Source of the DNA: Stenotrophobium rhamnosiphilum
GTDB lineage: Bacteria; Pseudomonadota; Gammaproteobacteria; Nevskiales; Nevskiaceae
Length of the DNA stretch: 64,000 bases
Direction: 5' to 3'
NCBI RefSeq assembly: GCF_003052265.1
Contig: NZ_QANS01000003.1
Coordinates: 1-64,000 of the forward strand
The first letter of the stretch is position 1. Each line of letters opens with the position of its first letter. A program made the position numbers and the translations under genes. Shown piece by piece: positions 17,481 through 56,458 of the stretch. The notes beneath the pieces are model-generated. The model made no database searches. It saw only the letters and a list, made by a program, of their open reading frames with translations, and had not been told where the DNA came from.

Positions 17481-18026
17481 CTAAAATTCGCCGCGCTTGA
17501 AGAGCGAGAAAAAGTTGTACGAGGGATCTGCAAGGCCCGGCTGACCAATGTAAGCGCCGCTTAGAAACGGATGATCCATCTGCACTTTGCTGGGCTCTGC
17601 CGGATACGCCCAATCCGCGACGATGGCGCGATGACTGAATTTCCACTGGCCATCGCGCTTTTCGTATTTATCGAAATAACGTCCGCCAATGAGCACATCA
17701 AACAAACCGTTTTCGCCCTTCACTTGGTGAAACGCCAAGATATAAACCTCGCCCTCGGCGCGATCTCCATCGAGTTTCAAATTAATCGTGGTGACGTTGT
17801 GATGCAGGATCGCCATCGCCTTTTGAATTTCTGGCAGCTTGGCAATGAACTCGCTCGCCAATCCCTTCGCAAAATGGCCGTGATCGTCGATGGCATCCGG
17901 GTGATACAGCGCCTGCATCTTTGCGTGATCGTGGCGATCCGCCGCGTTGCAATAAGCGTTGATCAATTCCGTGATCGCTTGCTTGTCGAGTAACTCGCGG
18001 AGTTGCTGTTCTAGTTGGCTATCCAT
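17481..18026 (-). CDS. NTF2/SnoaL-like protein
   Basis: A 181-residue protein with the cone-shaped NTF2/SnoaL fold signature: N-terminal helices LLDKQAITELINAYCNAADRH, HDHAKMQALYHPDAID, then beta strands AEGEVYILAFHQV, GGRYFDKYEKRDGQWKFSHR. The His/Asp/Tyr pattern in the pocket (YCNAADRHD, HPDA, Y...W) is like that of polyketide cyclases, scytalone dehydratase and steroid-side enzymes, but the substrate cannot be assigned. It interrupts the usual dprA-smg adjacency, suggesting that it was inserted there. Confidence 0.75.
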   Translation of the reverse strand: MDSQLEQQLRELLDKQAITELINAYCNAADRHDHAKMQALYHPDAIDDHGHFAKGLASEFIAKLPEIQKAMAILHHNVTTINLKLDGDRAEGEVYILAFHQVKGENGLFDVLIGGRYFDKYEKRDGQWKFSHRAIVADWAYPAEPSKVQMDHPFLSGAYIGQPGLADPSYNFFSLFKRGEF

Positions 18027-49841: not shown

Positions 49842-51088
49842 TGGAATATTTTGATTATCGTGACGGCGAACTGTTCGCCGAAGATGTCCGCGCTTCTGAA
49901 CTCGCAACGCGCTACGGCACGCCTTGCTACGTCTACTCGCGCACCGCACTAGAAAATCGCTATCGCGCTTTTGATGAAGCGTTATCGCCTGTGCCGCATC
50001 AGGTTTGCTACGCGGTCAAAGCCAATTCCAATATCGCGGTGCTGAATGTACTGGCACGCTTGGGTAGCGGCTTCGATATCGTCTCTGGAGGCGAACTGTT
50101 CCGCGTGCTGCGTGCAGGCGGCGATCCTTCCAAGATCGTGTTCTCTGGCGTGGGCAAAACCGCAGAAGAAATGCGCGATGCGCTGAACGCAAACATTTAC
50201 TGCTTCAACGTTGAGTCAGAATCCGAACTGCATCGCCTCAATAGCGTTGCGCACAAGCGCGGCCAGCGCGCACGCATCGCTCTGCGTGTGAATCCAGACG
50301 TTGATGCCAAGACACACCCGTACATTTCTACCGGTCTTAAGAACAATAAGTTCGGCGTGGATATTGCGATTGCAGAACGCCTCTACGCTGAAGCCGCCAA
50401 GATGCCGGGCATCGAGATCATCGGCGTCGCCAGTCACATTGGCTCGCAGTTACTGGATGTACAGCCGCTGCTCGATGCAATGGATCGCGTGCTCGCACTG
50501 ATTGATCGCCTCAAAGCAATCGGAATTAACCTTCAGCACATCGACGTTGGCGGCGGCTTAGGCGTTCGTTACAACGACGAACAGCCACTAGAGCCCGGCA
50601 CTTGGGCACGCGCGCTACTGCCGAAGTTGTCGGGTCGCGATCTTAAAGTGATGACCGAACCGGGCCGCGCGATTGTTGGCAACGCTGGTCTGCTGATCAC
50701 GCGCGTTGAGACGATCAAGTGCAATAACGAAAAAAACTTCGCCGTGATTGATGCGGCAATGAACGATCTGATTCGTCCTACGCTGTACCAGGCATGGATG
50801 AAGATTGTTCGCGTTAACGAAAAGTCCAGCGCTGAAGTAAAGAACTACGACATCGTCGGCCCTGTTTGTGAAAGCGGCGATTGGCTCGGCAAAGATCGTG
50901 AACTCGCACTGGAAGAAGGCGATCTACTCGCCGTGCGCACCGCTGGTGCATACGGCTTCACGATGGCCAGCAACTACAACACGCGTCCACGCGCAGTTGA
51001 AGTCATGGTCGACGGCGAACGCCACACCATCATCCGCGCCCGCGAAACGCTGGACGATCTGGTGCGCGGAGAAGCACTGCTGCCGTGA
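49841..51088 (+). CDS. lysA: Diaminopimelate decarboxylase
   Basis: A 415-residue PLP enzyme that converts meso-diaminopimelate to lysine. The PLP lysine is Lys60 in CYAVKANSN. HIDVGGGLGVRY and MTEPGRAIVGNAG bind the phosphate, and GPVCESGDWLGKDREL carries the active-site Cys. Start is GTG at 49841, one base into the lptM stop. The usual next gene dapF is absent; polA follows in a GTGA overlap. Confidence 0.96.
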   Translation: MEYFDYRDGELFAEDVRASELATRYGTPCYVYSRTALENRYRAFDEALSPVPHQVCYAVKANSNIAVLNVLARLGSGFDIVSGGELFRVLRAGGDPSKIVFSGVGKTAEEMRDALNANIYCFNVESESELHRLNSVAHKRGQRARIALRVNPDVDAKTHPYISTGLKNNKFGVDIAIAERLYAEAAKMPGIEIIGVASHIGSQLLDVQPLLDAMDRVLALIDRLKAIGINLQHIDVGGGLGVRYNDEQPLEPGTWARALLPKLSGRDLKVMTEPGRAIVGNAGLLITRVETIKCNNEKNFAVIDAAMNDLIRPTLYQAWMKIVRVNEKSSAEVKNYDIVGPVCESGDWLGKDRELALEEGDLLAVRTAGAYGFTMASNYNTRPRAVEVMVDGERHTIIRARETLDDLVRGEALLP

Positions 51089-53874
51089 GTACGATCAACG
51101 GCCCGCTGGTTCTTATTGACGGTTCATCATGGTTGTTTCGTGCGTATCACGCACTGCCACCCCTGACGAACCCCGCGGGTCAGCCCACCGGCGCTGTGTT
51201 CGGCATGGGCAATATGTTGCGTCGTCTCAGCAAGGACTATTTGCCTGAGCGCATCTGCGTTGTGTTCGATGCGCCCGGCAAAACATTCCGTGAAGCGATT
51301 TACGCCGAGTACAAAGCCAATCGCGATGAAACGCCGGAAGATCTTTCGGTGCAGTTCGCACCCATCATCGAGATGGCAGAAGCGCTGGGTTTACCGGTCA
51401 TTCAAATGTCCGGCGTTGAAGCGGATGATGTGATTGGCACACTCACACGCCAAGGCCGCGCGGCTGGGCTTGATGTATTGATTGTCACCAGCGACAAAGA
51501 CATGGCGCAGTTGGTGGATGAGCATGTGAGCCTGCTCGACACCATGAAGAATCGCCGTATGGATCCCGCAGGTGTCGTTGAGAAATTCGGCGTGCCGCCT
51601 GCGCTCATCATCGACATGCTCGCCTTGATGGGTGACACCAGCGACAACATTCCTGGCGTGCCGGGAGTGGGCCCAGTTACGGCTGCAAAGTGGCTCAACA
51701 CTTACGGTTCATTGGATGTGCTGGTTGAGAACGCCGAAAAAATTGGCGGCAAGATCGGCGACAAATTCCGCGCGCATTTGGCAACGGGCTTGCTGCCTGT
51801 TGCTAAAGACCTTGCAACGATTCGTTGCGAGTTGGAGATGCCGCTGACGATTGAAGCGCTCGTGCCACGCGCTCCCGACGTTGAGAAACTTGCAGCGCTG
51901 TACAAGCGCATGGGCTTTCATCGTTGGCTGGAAGAACTCGGTGGCGCGCCTGCGTCAGCAGAACCTGTCGCAGCAAAATCTTTTGATAAACCGGTAACGG
52001 CTTACACAACGATTGCTTCGCCTGCGCAAAGCGAAATCGTTGTGCCCACTGAGCAAATCAAAACGCGCGTTGAGCTTGTGCTTGATGACGCTGCACTTGA
52101 AGCGCTCGCACTGAAACTCGAAAGCGCTGAACTGTTCTGTTTTGATACTGAAACCGACAGCCTAGAATCCAATCAAGCAAATCTTGTTGGCCTCGCCTTC
52201 GCCGTCGAAGCGGGTCACGGCTGGTATGTACCTGTAGGCCACAACTACATGGGCGCACCGGCGCAGTTGTCGCTAGAAAAAGTGTTGAATCGTCTACGTG
52301 GCGTGATGGAAGACGATAGCCGCGCCAAGGTCGGCCAACACATCAAGTTCGATCTCAATGTGCTTGCACGCCACGGCTTACACGTTCGCGGCGTACGTCA
52401 CGACACGATGCTGCAAAGCTACGTGATCGACGCTGCAGGCAGCCGTCACGACATGGACACGCTGGCACAGAAGTATCTGGGCCACACGACTATCGCGTTC
52501 TCGGATGTCGCAGGCAAAGGTAAAAACCAAATCACTTTTAATCAGGTGGCTTTGGATGTCGCCGCCGATTATTCCGCAGAAGATGCGGATATCACTTTGC
52601 GTCTGCACCAAACGCTATATCCACGCGTTTGTGAAATCGAAGCGCTGAAACGCGTTTACGAAACCATCGAGATGCCGCTGGTGCCTGTGCTCGCACAGAT
52701 GGAGCAGACGGGCGTTCGCGTTGATGCAGCGCTACTCGGGCGCATCAGCGCCGAACTCGCCACGCGCATGGCGCAAATTCAGACTGAAGTTTTTAAAGAG
52801 GCAGGTCAAGAATTCAATCTTGGCTCGCCTAAACAGTTGCAACATATCCTCTACGAGAAATTGCAGTTGCCGGTACTCGGCAAAACGCCGAAGGGCGATC
52901 CGTCTACCGCCGAAGATGTGCTGGAAGAGCTCGCCGCACAACACGCGCTGCCGCGTTTGATTCTGGAATGGCGTGGCATGTCGAAGCTTCGCTCGACGTA
53001 CACCGAGAGCCTGCCGCTACAGATCAATCCTCGCACCGGTCGCATTCACACCAGCTATCACCAAGCGGTTGCGGCGACAGGTCGTTTGTCTTCGCAAGAT
53101 CCGAATCTGCAGAACATTCCGATTCGCACCGCAGAAGGTCGTCGCATTCGTCAGGCCTTTATCGCTGCGTCGGGCTGCGCTTTGCTATCCATCGACTACT
53201 CACAAATTGAATTGCGTTTGATGGCGCATTTCTCTGGCGACGAAAAGTTGGTGCAGGCGTTCATAGATGGTCGCGACATTCACCAAGCCACCGCCGCAGA
53301 AGTGCATGGCATCGCGCTCGATCAAGTCAGCGGTGAACAACGTCGCGCAGCTAAGGCAACCAACTTTGGTTTGATTTACGGCATGTCTGCGTTCGGTCTG
53401 GCGCGTCAACTCGGCATTCCGCGCGGCGAAGCGCAGGCCTATATCGACACTTTCTTCGCCCGCTATCCCGGCGTGAAAGAGTTCATGGACAACACCCGTG
53501 AGTTCGCACGTCGTGCAGGCTATGTCGAAACCCTGTTCGGCCGTCGTTTGTACCTGCCCAACATCAATTCCAAGAACGCGAACTTCCGCCAATACGCCGA
53601 AAGAACCGCGATTAATGCCCCGCTTCAAGGCACCGCAGCTGATTTGATCAAGCTAGCGATGATCGATTTAAAGGCGTTTTTAGAGCAGAAGGCGCCTGAT
53701 ACCCGCATGATCATGCAAGTTCACGACGAATTGATCTTTGAAGGCCCTGAGGCTGAACTCCAGAGCCTGGCCCCTGAACTTGCCCGTCGCATGTGCGAGA
53801 TCACCGCGCTTAAGGTGCCTTTGATCGCGGAACCAGGCCTCGGCGCTAACTGGGATGCCGCCCATAATGTGTAA
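51085..53874 (+). CDS. polA: DNA polymerase I
   Basis: A 929-residue repair and replication polymerase with all three domains. The 5'-3' exonuclease (about 1-290) has VLIDGSSWLFRAYHALPP, VFDAPGKTFRE and GDTSDNIPGVPGVGP. The 3'-5' exonuclease (about 330-520) has FCFDTETDSLESN. In the polymerase domain, motif A is LLSIDYSQIELRLMAHFS, motif B is RRAAKATNFGLIYGMSAFGL and motif C is MQVHDELIFE. It starts with GTG in a GTGA overlap with lysA. Downstream there is a non-coding region that appears to hold a small RNA. Confidence 0.97.
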   Translation: MSTINGPLVLIDGSSWLFRAYHALPPLTNPAGQPTGAVFGMGNMLRRLSKDYLPERICVVFDAPGKTFREAIYAEYKANRDETPEDLSVQFAPIIEMAEALGLPVIQMSGVEADDVIGTLTRQGRAAGLDVLIVTSDKDMAQLVDEHVSLLDTMKNRRMDPAGVVEKFGVPPALIIDMLALMGDTSDNIPGVPGVGPVTAAKWLNTYGSLDVLVENAEKIGGKIGDKFRAHLATGLLPVAKDLATIRCELEMPLTIEALVPRAPDVEKLAALYKRMGFHRWLEELGGAPASAEPVAAKSFDKPVTAYTTIASPAQSEIVVPTEQIKTRVELVLDDAALEALALKLESAELFCFDTETDSLESNQANLVGLAFAVEAGHGWYVPVGHNYMGAPAQLSLEKVLNRLRGVMEDDSRAKVGQHIKFDLNVLARHGLHVRGVRHDTMLQSYVIDAAGSRHDMDTLAQKYLGHTTIAFSDVAGKGKNQITFNQVALDVAADYSAEDADITLRLHQTLYPRVCEIEALKRVYETIEMPLVPVLAQMEQTGVRVDAALLGRISAELATRMAQIQTEVFKEAGQEFNLGSPKQLQHILYEKLQLPVLGKTPKGDPSTAEDVLEELAAQHALPRLILEWRGMSKLRSTYTESLPLQINPRTGRIHTSYHQAVAATGRLSSQDPNLQNIPIRTAEGRRIRQAFIAASGCALLSIDYSQIELRLMAHFSGDEKLVQAFIDGRDIHQATAAEVHGIALDQVSGEQRRAAKATNFGLIYGMSAFGLARQLGIPRGEAQAYIDTFFARYPGVKEFMDNTREFARRAGYVETLFGRRLYLPNINSKNANFRQYAERTAINAPLQGTAADLIKLAMIDLKAFLEQKAPDTRMIMQVHDELIFEGPEAELQSLAPELARRMCEITALKVPLIAEPGLGANWDAAHNV

Positions 53875-54023
53875 AGCTGTAACTTACTAATTAATAATAA
53901 AATTTAGTTTTAAATTTGTTGAAATTGGCCCTTAACGTAGATTTACGCAGGCCATAACTTATTGATTAGTAAGAAACTGTGCAGGCCGTTCAAGGCATCT
54001 ATTTCAGCCCATGAAAGCGGCCG

Positions 54024-54053
54024 TTGAACTAAACCGTCCTGCCCACATCTAAT
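54024..54053 (+). promoter_or_regulatory. Predicted sigma70 promoter of the polA-linked sRNA
   Basis: -35 TTGAAC at 54024-54029 and -10 TCTAAT at 54048-54053, with an 18-bp spacer. The transcription start would be near 54060. It matches the consensus at 4 of 6 (-35) and 5 of 6 (-10) positions. It lies just ahead of the hairpin cluster, which supports independent transcription. Confidence 0.6.
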
Positions 54054-54059
54054 CCTTCG

Positions 54060-54175
54060 AGTACGGATTCTCCCTTTCCTACTCCCCGCCGCGTAACTCC
54101 CTAGGCGGGTCCGGTTTCCCCCAAGCCGGAGCTCCTTGGCCCGATAGGTCTCCCCCTGATCTATCGGGCTTTTTT
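54060..54175 (+). ncRNA. Small RNA candidate with three C-rich hairpin loops (sX13/ErsA/Spot 42 locus position)
   Basis: About 115 nt. A C/U-rich single-stranded 5' part (ATTCTCCCTTTCCTACTCCC) precedes hairpin 1 (stem CCCGCC/GGCGGG, 54085-54090 with 54104-54109, loop containing CTCCCT), hairpin 2 (8-bp stem 54110-54117 with 54123-54130, loop CCCCC) and hairpin 3 (12-bp stem 54139-54150 with 54158-54169, loop TCCCCCT) followed by TTTTTT, an intrinsic terminator. All three loops are C-rich, as in sRNAs that pair with the G-rich Shine-Dalgarno region of target mRNAs. A position right after polA is where enterobacterial Spot 42, Pseudomonas ErsA and Xanthomonas sX13 lie (from memory); sX13 also has C-rich loops and is about 115 nt long. 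No coding potential is seen. Confidence 0.78.
54139..54175 (+). terminator. Terminator hairpin of the sRNA
   Basis: A 12-bp stem (GCCCGATAGGTC pairing with GATCTATCGGGC, one G-T wobble) with loop TCCCCCT, followed by six T residues. It is both the third C-rich loop and the transcript end. Confidence 0.9.
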
Positions 54176-54212
54176 ATGTACAGGAAGTACGGTACCCCAC
54201 GGGCGCATGGAT

Positions 54213-54359
54213 GCGCAGGAGTGGGGTTCTCGCCTCGCTCACTAAACTTTAAAAAAAGAACGCGCAGGAGCGGAGGTGTTTGTGCAGAGATGTCATCTCC
54301 AAACAAGAACACGCAGGAGTGGAGCTCTCGCCCCGCTCACTAAACTCTTAAAAAAGCCC
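54213..54359. repeat. Three tandem 49-bp REP-like units
   Basis: Units start at 54213, 54262 and 54311, each beginning (G/A)CGCAGGAG(T/C)GG. The first and third share CGCTCACTAAACT and an A-rich tail; the second has diverged after 12 bases. Within units 1 and 3, GAGTGG can pair with a downstream CCGCTC/CTCGCTC, giving a REP-style hairpin. They lie in the 3' region of the minus-strand S15 gene. Confidence 0.7.
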
Positions 54360-54391
54360 CGCTAACACGGAAGCACCTGTGCAGCGACGCC

Positions 54392-56377
54392 CTAAGAACC
54401 CCCACCATTCAACTGCCCCACAGGCACAAGCGGCAACACCACACTAGAAGCATGCGCCACATCGCCATAGATACTCAGAACCCCAGCAGCCGAATCAACC
54501 ACACCCGGCAACGGCATTAACGCAAACGGAAAATTGCTAGCACCCACAGAAATGCGCAGCTTGTGACCTTTGCGAATCAACGCACTCGTCGGAAAAATTT
54601 CTACCGGCACTTTAACGATGTTGCCGCTGCCAACCGCCTGCAGTGATTCGAAAGTAAACGGATGCCAAGGCTGAATCATTTCGCCATCGAGATAGCGTGA
54701 TTTGCTTTCGTCTACGGCGCGAAACGAGGCGGTGAGTAGTCCACTGGTCAATGCGTGCGCACTACCGTCGGGATACAAATCAGAAACGCGCACAACGACA
54801 CCTGCATTCTGCGCAGTCGTCGACATCCAGATGTCCGCGAGGATGGGGCCATTGATGTACATGTCCTCTTCCAAAGTTGCGGTGTCGAATGTTGCTTCCA
54901 ATGTTTGCGCGACGTTGTCTTTGTAGAAGCAATCAATCGGCGCATAGCCAGTGAGTCCCAGTGATATCTGCAAAGTACTTTCCGAACAGATGCCATTAAC
55001 GGGTTGTTGAATGATCGTGCTTGGCGCGGGATTGGTCGTCGGCGCTGTGTTATCCAAACGTCCGCCACTTTGCAAAAAATAACGCGCTGCCTGTGCATGC
55101 GGATTGGGCCAATCGCTACTCGTCGAGAAGTGCTCGTGCCCCCAAACCCATTGCGTAACATTTGGCAGCTTCTCGGCACCGTTGCGCATGTTCTTTAGAT
55201 AACGATCGAACCACATCAGCGCAATGTGATCGAGCACGGGCACGCCTTCACGCGGCAGGCCATCACCGGTCGCAGCTTCTAAGTGATGCCAAGGGCCAAT
55301 CAATAATTTTGTTGTGGTGTGATTCTTCAGCGCTTCGTAATTGAGCGGTTCACTGCGCTGGAAAATATCGAACAGGCCACCGACGACAAAGGTCGGTACT
55401 TTCAAGCCATCAGAAACTTCCAACGGGGCTTTCGTCGCCCAGTACTCGTTATCGAAAGCACTATCTTCCGCTCCAGAAACAACGCCAACGGTTCGCGGAA
55501 TCAAAAACTGATTGAGCCCCAGCAAGTGTTGATTAACGGCTGAGAGATATTGATCAGGCTGCGAATAGAACTGCGGATCTACCGTCGCTAACAGTGTGAC
55601 TGCGCCCATCCACGCTGGGAGAAACGCGATGCTGGCCTGACCACCGACAAATACAACGTCGCGATAAATATCGCCATGCGGCACGATCGGAAAAACGGCT
55701 TTGATCGCGGGATGGCCGTGACTCGCTGCGAATAGAGAGGTTGTCGCCGTGGCAGAAATTCCCCACATGCCGATGACGCCATCGCTCCATGGCTGCGCGA
55801 CAATCCAATCAAGAACCTGCGGATAATCTTGCAACTCACGAGCGCTGAAAGGATCCCACGCACCACCAGAACGCCCGGTGCCGCGCACATCAATCAACAC
55901 ATGGTTGTAGCCATGCGAAACAAAATAAGGATTGATGCCGCCGCCGAGCGGAATCGTGTCGCCGACATTTTTGTTGTACGGCGTAAACGTGACGATGGTG
56001 GGCAAGGGACTCGTTGAAAACTTACCGGCCTTGGTCGGACGCACCAACTTCAATGTGATGCTGATGCCGTCATCCATCGCAACACTGACATTGTCTTCAG
56101 CAGCGCTGCCGTCGTAGCTGGCAGGTGGGTTGTAGTCGACCCATTTCCCATCGGCGTTTTTCGTGATCGCTTCGTTTGGCCGACTCGCGTGCTGACGATT
56201 GCCCAGCGTGGTCCAGTCGCTATTGCCCCCTGCATCGCCATCGACAGAAGGCGAGCGGCTACACGCGGCAACCGCCACAAGGACAGCGCCCATCGATAAG
56301 GCTAAAAATAAAGAATGACCCAAGCGTCCGACGATGCGACGCGCAACCCCATTGCTGCCCGAATGCTCTGCTCGCAT
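54392..56377 (-). CDS. CocE/NonD (S15 X-Pro dipeptidyl-peptidase-like) hydrolase lipoprotein
   Basis: About 661 residues. The start at 56377 (MRAEHSGSNGVARR) fits a predicted promoter whose transcript would begin near 56405; the frame is open up to 56422, but that part overlaps the promoter. A long basic n-region and a hydrophobic segment end in VAVAAC (lipobox, Cys39). The alpha/beta hydrolase domain has VDVRGTGRSGGAWDPFS-like text, the nucleophile in MWGISATATTS, an Asp in VVGGLFDIFQRS and a His in GPWHHLE. The C-terminal jelly-roll X-Pro domain (about 490-660; SRYLDGEMIQPWHPF, HKLRISVGASNFPF) is complete. Such enzymes hydrolyse esters or X-Pro peptides; the substrate is unknown. It is divergent from, and probably controlled by, the adjacent TetR protein. 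Confidence 0.88.
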   Translation of the reverse strand: MRAEHSGSNGVARRIVGRLGHSLFLALSMGAVLVAVAACSRSPSVDGDAGGNSDWTTLGNRQHASRPNEAITKNADGKWVDYNPPASYDGSAAEDNVSVAMDDGISITLKLVRPTKAGKFSTSPLPTIVTFTPYNKNVGDTIPLGGGINPYFVSHGYNHVLIDVRGTGRSGGAWDPFSARELQDYPQVLDWIVAQPWSDGVIGMWGISATATTSLFAASHGHPAIKAVFPIVPHGDIYRDVVFVGGQASIAFLPAWMGAVTLLATVDPQFYSQPDQYLSAVNQHLLGLNQFLIPRTVGVVSGAEDSAFDNEYWATKAPLEVSDGLKVPTFVVGGLFDIFQRSEPLNYEALKNHTTTKLLIGPWHHLEAATGDGLPREGVPVLDHIALMWFDRYLKNMRNGAEKLPNVTQWVWGHEHFSTSSDWPNPHAQAARYFLQSGGRLDNTAPTTNPAPSTIIQQPVNGICSESTLQISLGLTGYAPIDCFYKDNVAQTLEATFDTATLEEDMYINGPILADIWMSTTAQNAGVVVRVSDLYPDGSAHALTSGLLTASFRAVDESKSRYLDGEMIQPWHPFTFESLQAVGSGNIVKVPVEIFPTSALIRKGHKLRISVGASNFPFALMPLPGVVDSAAGVLSIYGDVAHASSVVLPLVPVGQLNGGGS

Positions 56378-56399
56378 ATCCAACCCCGTCAGTATCCAC

Positions 56400-56458
56400 T
56401 TGGCTACATTCAAAGTAGCCAACTGTATACCTAACTGTCAACACTGGCTAAACTAGCC
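56400..56458. promoter_or_regulatory. TetR-type operator overlapping a divergent promoter
   Basis: An 8-bp perfect inverted repeat TTGGCTAC-N7-GTAGCCAA (56400-56422) shares GGCTA/TAGCC half-sites with a second repeat GGCTA-N3-TAGCC (56446-56458) just before the tetR ATG. On the minus strand, -35 TTGACA (56436-56441) and -10 TACTTT (56412-56417), 18 bp apart, would transcribe the hydrolase gene; the first inverted repeat covers this -10. Binding there would block that promoter, and the second site may give autoregulation. Confidence 0.7.

Follow-up and report, generated by a model that had tools for sequence, protein, structure and literature searches.

A conserved small RNA gene with C-rich hairpin loops and a sigma-E-type promoter motif behind polA in Stenotrophobium rhamnosiphilum

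The DNA analysed here, called the window below, is a stretch of 64,000 nucleotides from Stenotrophobium rhamnosiphilum, and the feature under study is a small RNA gene that has the orientation of polA and starts 184 nt past its stop codon (Table 1). As the original prediction had stated, the RNA lies behind polA and outside the protein genes; the stretch is intergenic, and the sole open reading frame of at least 60 codons over it is an antisense frame of 77 codons (54079-54312). A coding RNA could be ruled out, as 54059-54175 contains not a single ATG or GTG, and so could a leader of the downstream gene, as the next gene past the RNA (54392-56422) runs in the opposite direction. Because of the position of the -10 element and the beginning of the first hairpin, the start of the RNA was predicted at 54059, instead of the 5' end near 54060 proposed before. 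Between polA and the RNA promoter there is a 15-nt AT-rich inverted repeat (53883-53897 and 53959-53973), and just 3' of the RNA a 45-nt direct repeat (54214-54258 and 54312-54356) whose copies are 89% identical and 98 nt apart.

Table 1. Features at the locus, with position in the window, strand, description and evidence.
Small RNA gene	54059..54175	+	117 nt, predicted start	73.1 bits, E 6.7e-15 with model R1; R3 match at the same coordinates
polA, conserved upstream neighbour	51085..53874	+		
Sigma-E/AlgU-type promoter motif	54026..54052	+	GAACTA 54026-54031, 16 nt, TCTAA 54048-54052	letters checked, kept in relatives
Hairpin H1	54059..54084	+	loop TTCTCCCTT at 54068-54076	fold; two-sided changes in all 6 modelled pairs
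Hairpin H2	54085..54109	+	loop GCGTAACTCCCTA at 54091-54103	fold, alignment
Hairpin H3	54110..54130	+	loop CCCCC at 54118-54122	fold, alignment
Hairpin H4 with T run, intrinsic terminator	54138..54175	+	loop TCCCCCT at 54151-54157	two-sided changes in all 12 modelled pairs

Folding of 54060-54177 gave an energy of -49.1 kcal/mol, which is 16 kcal/mol lower than the mean of 200 dinucleotide shuffles and below every one of them (z -4.79). The C-rich loops CTCCCT, CCCCC and TCCCCCT expected from the original prediction are all present in the fold, and a terminator scan found the stem 54138-54170 followed by a T run, so that the last hairpin is indeed the proposed intrinsic terminator. Three hairpins had been described; H2 to H4 are as claimed, but the total is four, as H1 had been overlooked. 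What had been taken for a C/U-rich lead is this hairpin with its own CUCCCU loop, all modelled pairs of which change on both sides among the relatives.

A covariance model (R1) was built from nine well-aligned relatives, excluding the copy at 54059-54175, and its structure was written by hand, because H1 and H4 were misaligned in a plain MAFFT alignment, for which RNAalifold gave 14 pairs. R1 recovered the excluded copy with the score given in Table 1. A second model (R2) was built on 72 copies aligned to R1 (38 loci, 67 distinct), and a third (R3) has 56 rows with sX13 and ErsA rows added; 38 chosen sources were used for alignment A9, rows L025 and L030 were left out before alignments A1/A2, and L026, L029 and L120 (overlaps) before A7. 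In the 72 copies 97.5% of the pair cells are kept and 25 of the 30 pairs show two-sided changes, and in the R3 alignment (56 rows) 95.1% of the cells are paired, with two-sided changes in 29 of the 30 pairs; these counts lean towards the structure, because the alignments were fitted to it. Covariation in the 72 copies reached 0.595, compared with 0.186 for shuffled alignments and at most 0.107 for slid structures, and all 28 rows of A2 have the CTCCCT of the H2 loop without exception. With blastn the RNA stretch was detected in 25 of 61 genomes, own genome counted, and conservation behind polA in close relatives, named beforehand as a point on which the original prediction could be refuted, was observed with polA beside the RNA at 26 of 30 loci. 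In the family, R2 detected the RNA in 57 of 58 genomes (49 of 49 good-quality genomes, 12 of 12 genera), many of which are training genomes. Among named organisms, Nevskia and Solimonas have the most similar PolA (68-69%), which agrees with a placement in Nevskiaceae as defined by GTDB. By these comparisons, the RNA gene is real and conserved.

Several genomes of the same family carry two to five copies according to R2, some in tandem and some on other contigs. Extra copies at L027, L028 and L030 have fetched flanks without polA, and the same genomes also have a polA-linked copy. The own genome has a single copy by R2 and R3. A hit of the sX13 model at G000:C2:143683 (32.2 bits) was rejected as a second copy, as it had no R3 match at E 1, and an R3 match at 17568-17664 of the window (E 0.14) was taken as chance.

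For the promoter, a -35/-10 pair had been proposed, and the letters TTGAAC-N18-TCTAAT do exist; however, they are missing from the list of a sigma-70 scan, and the relatives keep a sigma-E/AlgU pattern. The kept upstream letters are GAACT, one further base, a spacer of 16 nt in 52 cases and of 17 nt in 11 cases, and then TCnnA; this GAACT...TC pattern is the consensus for sigma-E in E. coli and for AlgU in Pseudomonas. From 99 listed copies 96 distinct upstreams were obtained, and the strict motif precedes 63 of them (shuffles: mean 0.36, maximum 3 in 200); with up to two mismatches allowed it was found in 88 of 96 (about 1.5 expected). At the 50 class-wide loci described below the strict motif was detected 31 times (0.6 expected) and with at most one mismatch 39 times (0.86 expected), and a motif of the sigma-E type also precedes the Rudaea sX13 copy and the Pseudomonas ErsA copy (L086). 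A relaxed sigma-70 pattern was found in 0 of 69 upstreams of the two nearest families and in 1 of 27 of the others, and a sigma-70 promoter was rejected on these counts and its absence from the scan list. Judged by its letters, the promoter is of the sigma-E/AlgU type and not sigma-70, and the RNA would be expected to depend on sigma-E. The genome contains an RpoE gene (307.3 bits to TIGR02939), and GAACTT-N16-TCTCA, a single site and weak alone, lies about 157 nt upstream of the matched stretch of this gene, where an autoregulatory promoter of rpoE would be expected. A search of the own genome for the exact pattern GAACTT-N15-17-TCTAA gave no more than 2 places versus 7 for the reversed control, and it misses the RNA's own promoter.

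Across the class, R3 (E ≤0.01) gave matches in 198 of 370 genomes and 153 of 273 genera. Fifty class-wide loci were inspected, the 30 best-scoring and 20 hand-picked to include weaker hits, which is a non-random set that includes the RNA studied here (L146) and whose genomes may overlap with the named training loci. Within the fetched flanks, polA was found upstream on the same strand at 30 loci and engB downstream at 32, at least one of them at 43 and both at 19; three loci lie between rimO and hslV, and four are without polA, engB or rimO-hslV. The C-loop RNAs between rimO and hslV (L145, L147 and L155, 1501-1615) each have a strict promoter motif. Rfam names 4 of the 40 class-wide loci scanned, all as anti-hemB. 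In the own genome the contig of the RNA also carries engB, but at a distance of about 246 kb, and the RNA has stayed with polA. With a match to a model untrained on it, polA upstream, the promoter motif and the loops, the RNA described here falls within the proposed grouping of polA/engB-linked C-loop RNAs with sigma-E-type promoters.

Arrays of three to six copies between polA and engB were present in the nine inspected genomes of one genus of the same order (g17), with three copies each at L112, L113, L115, L116 and L117, four at L111 and L119 (one of the latter 1.3 kb off from the others), five at L120 and six at L114 (G047:C2) as counted with R1. All six units of L114 have their own strict promoter motif and terminator. 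A tenth genome of the genus (G044) gave five R3 matches and an eleventh (G060) no match by the sX13 model. The genus is presumably Salinisphaera, because L113 shares copies with Salinisphaera shabanensis (L033).

We were further interested in how the RNA is related to named families. At their own cutoffs the Rfam models name nothing in the window. The best match below cutoff was anti-hemB (RF02837; 44.3 bits, cutoff 49.5, E 3.8e-9), located at the RNA, and the sX13 model (RF02232) gave 35.9 bits for the copy at 54059-54175, where its cutoff of 50 was not reached; the Rfam check suggested at the outset returned no family above cutoff. The model of the alphaproteobacterial RNA BjrC80 remained far below its cutoff (22.6 bits versus 80, E 0.031). 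RF01719 (ErsA/Pseudomon-1) did not match anywhere in 53870-54400 with the limit relaxed to E 10, and RF00021 (Spot 42) none in the window at cutoff and none at the RNA even at E 10. Both Solimonas flava copies pass the anti-hemB cutoff, as do seven copies from 5 of the 20 related loci, and the sX13 cutoff is passed by 0 of 61 relatives; the sX13 model also matches 1 of 14 control genomes (Thermus composti).

When 80 named loci around polA were scanned with R1 and R2, all 27 R1 matches (E ≤0.031) and all 31 R2 matches (E ≤0.015; in 25 of the 80 loci) were on the plus strand within about 570 nt behind polA; L032 and L033 had been used to train R2, and the score of L031 resembles that of a training row. 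R2 left 55 of the 80 loci unmatched at E 0.015, so not every polA is followed by the RNA. The Rudaea RNA, named sX13 by Rfam and used for training neither model, was matched by R1 with 34.4 bits (E 3e-5) and by R2 with 48.2 bits (E 1e-8), which turns the suggested kinship with sX13 into homology. The equally untrained Pseudomonas RNA, ErsA according to Rfam, obtained 18.7 bits (E 0.12) with R1 and 26.3 bits (E 0.0016) with R2, and the kinship with ErsA, also suggested before, is probable, although RF01719 found nothing at the locus. The third suggested relative, Spot 42, had to be given up, as R2 and R3 had no match behind polA in the five enteric loci among the 80, including the Morganella locus, where the RNA is Spot 42 by Rfam, and as RF00021 did not match the RNA. 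Weak R3 matches just behind polA at L076 (7721-7854) and L085 (7818-7921), with E 0.003 and 0.02, come from two marine gammaproteobacteria, have no Rfam name and may be diverged members. By the Rfam cutoffs the RNA here is in none of sX13, ErsA and anti-hemB, yet it lies between them, with a firm link to sX13, a good one to anti-hemB and a probable one to ErsA.

Possible targets were searched by their ribosome-binding sites. AGGGAGT-N2-9-ATG occurs at 15 places in the own genome versus 5 for the reversed pattern; eight of the 15 are followed by open frames of at least 80 codons and seven by frames of less than 50 codons. The longer frames encode an OMP_b-brl protein, a TonB plug, two MFS proteins, a DUF4845 protein, a P450 and one protein without Pfam match, the eighth lying outside the Pfam search, and among the eight Pfam identifies just two as outer-membrane proteins. 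GGGG precedes the start in 11 of 19 inspected OMP homologues (own gene included) versus 7 of 54 control genes, and GGGG or GGGAG in 15 of 19 versus 15 of 54, a comparison in which the homologues are not independent, the control is small (54 genes) and start codons were chosen by eye. The 19 homologues come from 30 loci, the others being weaker, partial or second pieces. In the loop-pairing test, where the start codon is a few bases off in two genes (G008 and G019), the OMP leader ranked within the top 4 of 54 for 7 of the 12 gene-RNA pairs and failed to do so for the remaining 5. The mRNA of the outer-membrane beta-barrel protein (OMP_b-brl) is the best predicted target, i.e. a candidate and not a demonstrated target. 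As a conserved target hfq was rejected: it is a target of sX13, whereas here its start in the own genome is not preceded by a G-run.

From these data, the RNA is likely a stand-alone, trans-acting small RNA that is driven by sigma-E (RpoE/AlgU) and masks G-rich ribosome-binding sites with its C-rich loops. Under envelope stress, sigma-E would be freed and would transcribe the RNA gene from 54026-54052, and the RNA's own terminator would end transcription. The RNA would be nearly all folded with four C-rich loops (CUCCCU or CCCCC) exposed. By pairing with AGGGAG or GGGG in G-rich ribosome-binding sites, these loops would keep ribosomes from entering, and as an outcome less outer-membrane and transport protein would be made during envelope repair. 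The Hfq link assumed originally found no support; an hfq gene is present in the genome, yet sX13 acts without Hfq according to passages of its description (PMC3771888), and the RNA here probably does so as well. The RNA gene, its structure and conserved loops, its conservation, promoter motif and locus as well as the relation to sX13 are established at the level of sequence, from which we infer expression, sigma-E dependence, independence of Hfq, target pairing and repression by the RNA.

If the RNA were instead a sigma-70-driven, Hfq-dependent, polA-linked metabolic regulator homologous to Spot 42, this would agree with the presence of hfq and with the position of Spot 42 at the same locus in E. 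coli, where the order is polA-spf-yihA/engB. Given the lack of a Spot 42 match in the window, of R2 or R3 matches behind polA in the five enteric loci and of the relaxed sigma-70 pattern in all but one of the upstreams counted above, such a regulator is extremely improbable. The short distance to the polA stop, the common strand and the terminator at its end could also mean that the RNA serves mainly as terminator or 3' UTR for polA and is no more than a processed piece of its message, with no promoter of its own. This is very unlikely in view of the promoter motif kept in register before the RNA, the separate motif and terminator of each of the six L114 array units and the copies without polA in the fetched flanks; moreover, a terminator would not need conserved loops in three upstream hairpins. 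Binding of a protein by the loops instead of mRNAs, with the RNA as a sponge for an RNA-binding regulator, is very unlikely as well, even though titration would be suited by the repeated, near-identical loops in each RNA and by the multi-copy arrays. We know of no protein with a CUCCCU site of such kind. In addition, the related sX13 represses reporters via its loops and G-rich motifs, as stated in parts of the same source (PMC3771888).

The RNA appears to belong, as a single copy, to a regulator that is widespread in bacteria and has so far been described piecemeal under different names. We lean towards the view that sX13, ErsA, anti-hemB and the RNA here represent one ancient polA-engB lineage that is under sigma-E control in all its members and occurs in over half of the Gammaproteobacteria sampled (as GTDB defines them). 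It would act as an envelope-stress repressor in gammaproteobacteria outside the enterics, would have multiplied in one genus to arrays of as many as six copies, each with its own promoter, and would have been lost or replaced by Spot 42 at the same locus in enterics. For RNAs that carry three separate Rfam names or none, the common sigma-E-type promoter would suggest one testable function, the repression under envelope stress of mRNAs whose ribosome-binding sites are G-rich. This link was not found in the open-licence literature, which is weak evidence of absence; two of the names Pseudomon-1, ErsA and sX13 do not occur together in any paper there, and the single paper with both sX13 and rpoE mentions them in unrelated places.

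Among known systems, the LhrC RNAs of Listeria contain UCCC motifs. LhrC1-5 are multicopy small RNAs induced by cell-envelope stress, as described in passages of PMC4132741, and they resemble the arrays in being multicopy, but they belong to another phylum and are under LisRK two-component control, which makes this an analogy only. The RNA anti-hemB corresponds to Burkholderia RNA 7 and to ncS04 in B. cenocepacia (in parts of PMC5688073); its Rfam model covers 81 positions and leaves H1 outside, and its name implies an antisense action on hemB. ErsA is described in excerpts as strictly sigma-22 dependent and as a repressor of the porin OprD (PMC7565897), and a passage elsewhere calls its effect on amrZ Hfq-independent with 'data not shown' (PMC5819304). 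Like the RNA here, the Pseudomonas copy (L086) lies behind polA with a matching promoter motif, and its loops contain CUCUCCCU and CCCUCCCC by eye; unlike for sX13, the link by model scores is weak, and the RNA here has no RF01719 match. For sX13 from Xanthomonadaceae, Hfq-independent repression via C-rich loops and GGGG motifs and an increased level with salt and at 37 degrees are reported in sections of PMC3771888. As the RNA here, sX13 is located behind polA, has C-rich loops and, in the Rudaea copy, a sigma-E-type promoter. The three stem-loops with 4C/5C loops by which sX13 is defined are found in H2 to H4 (CUCCCU, CCCCC and CCCCC), to which the RNA described here adds H1 as a fourth, 5' hairpin with a C-rich loop.
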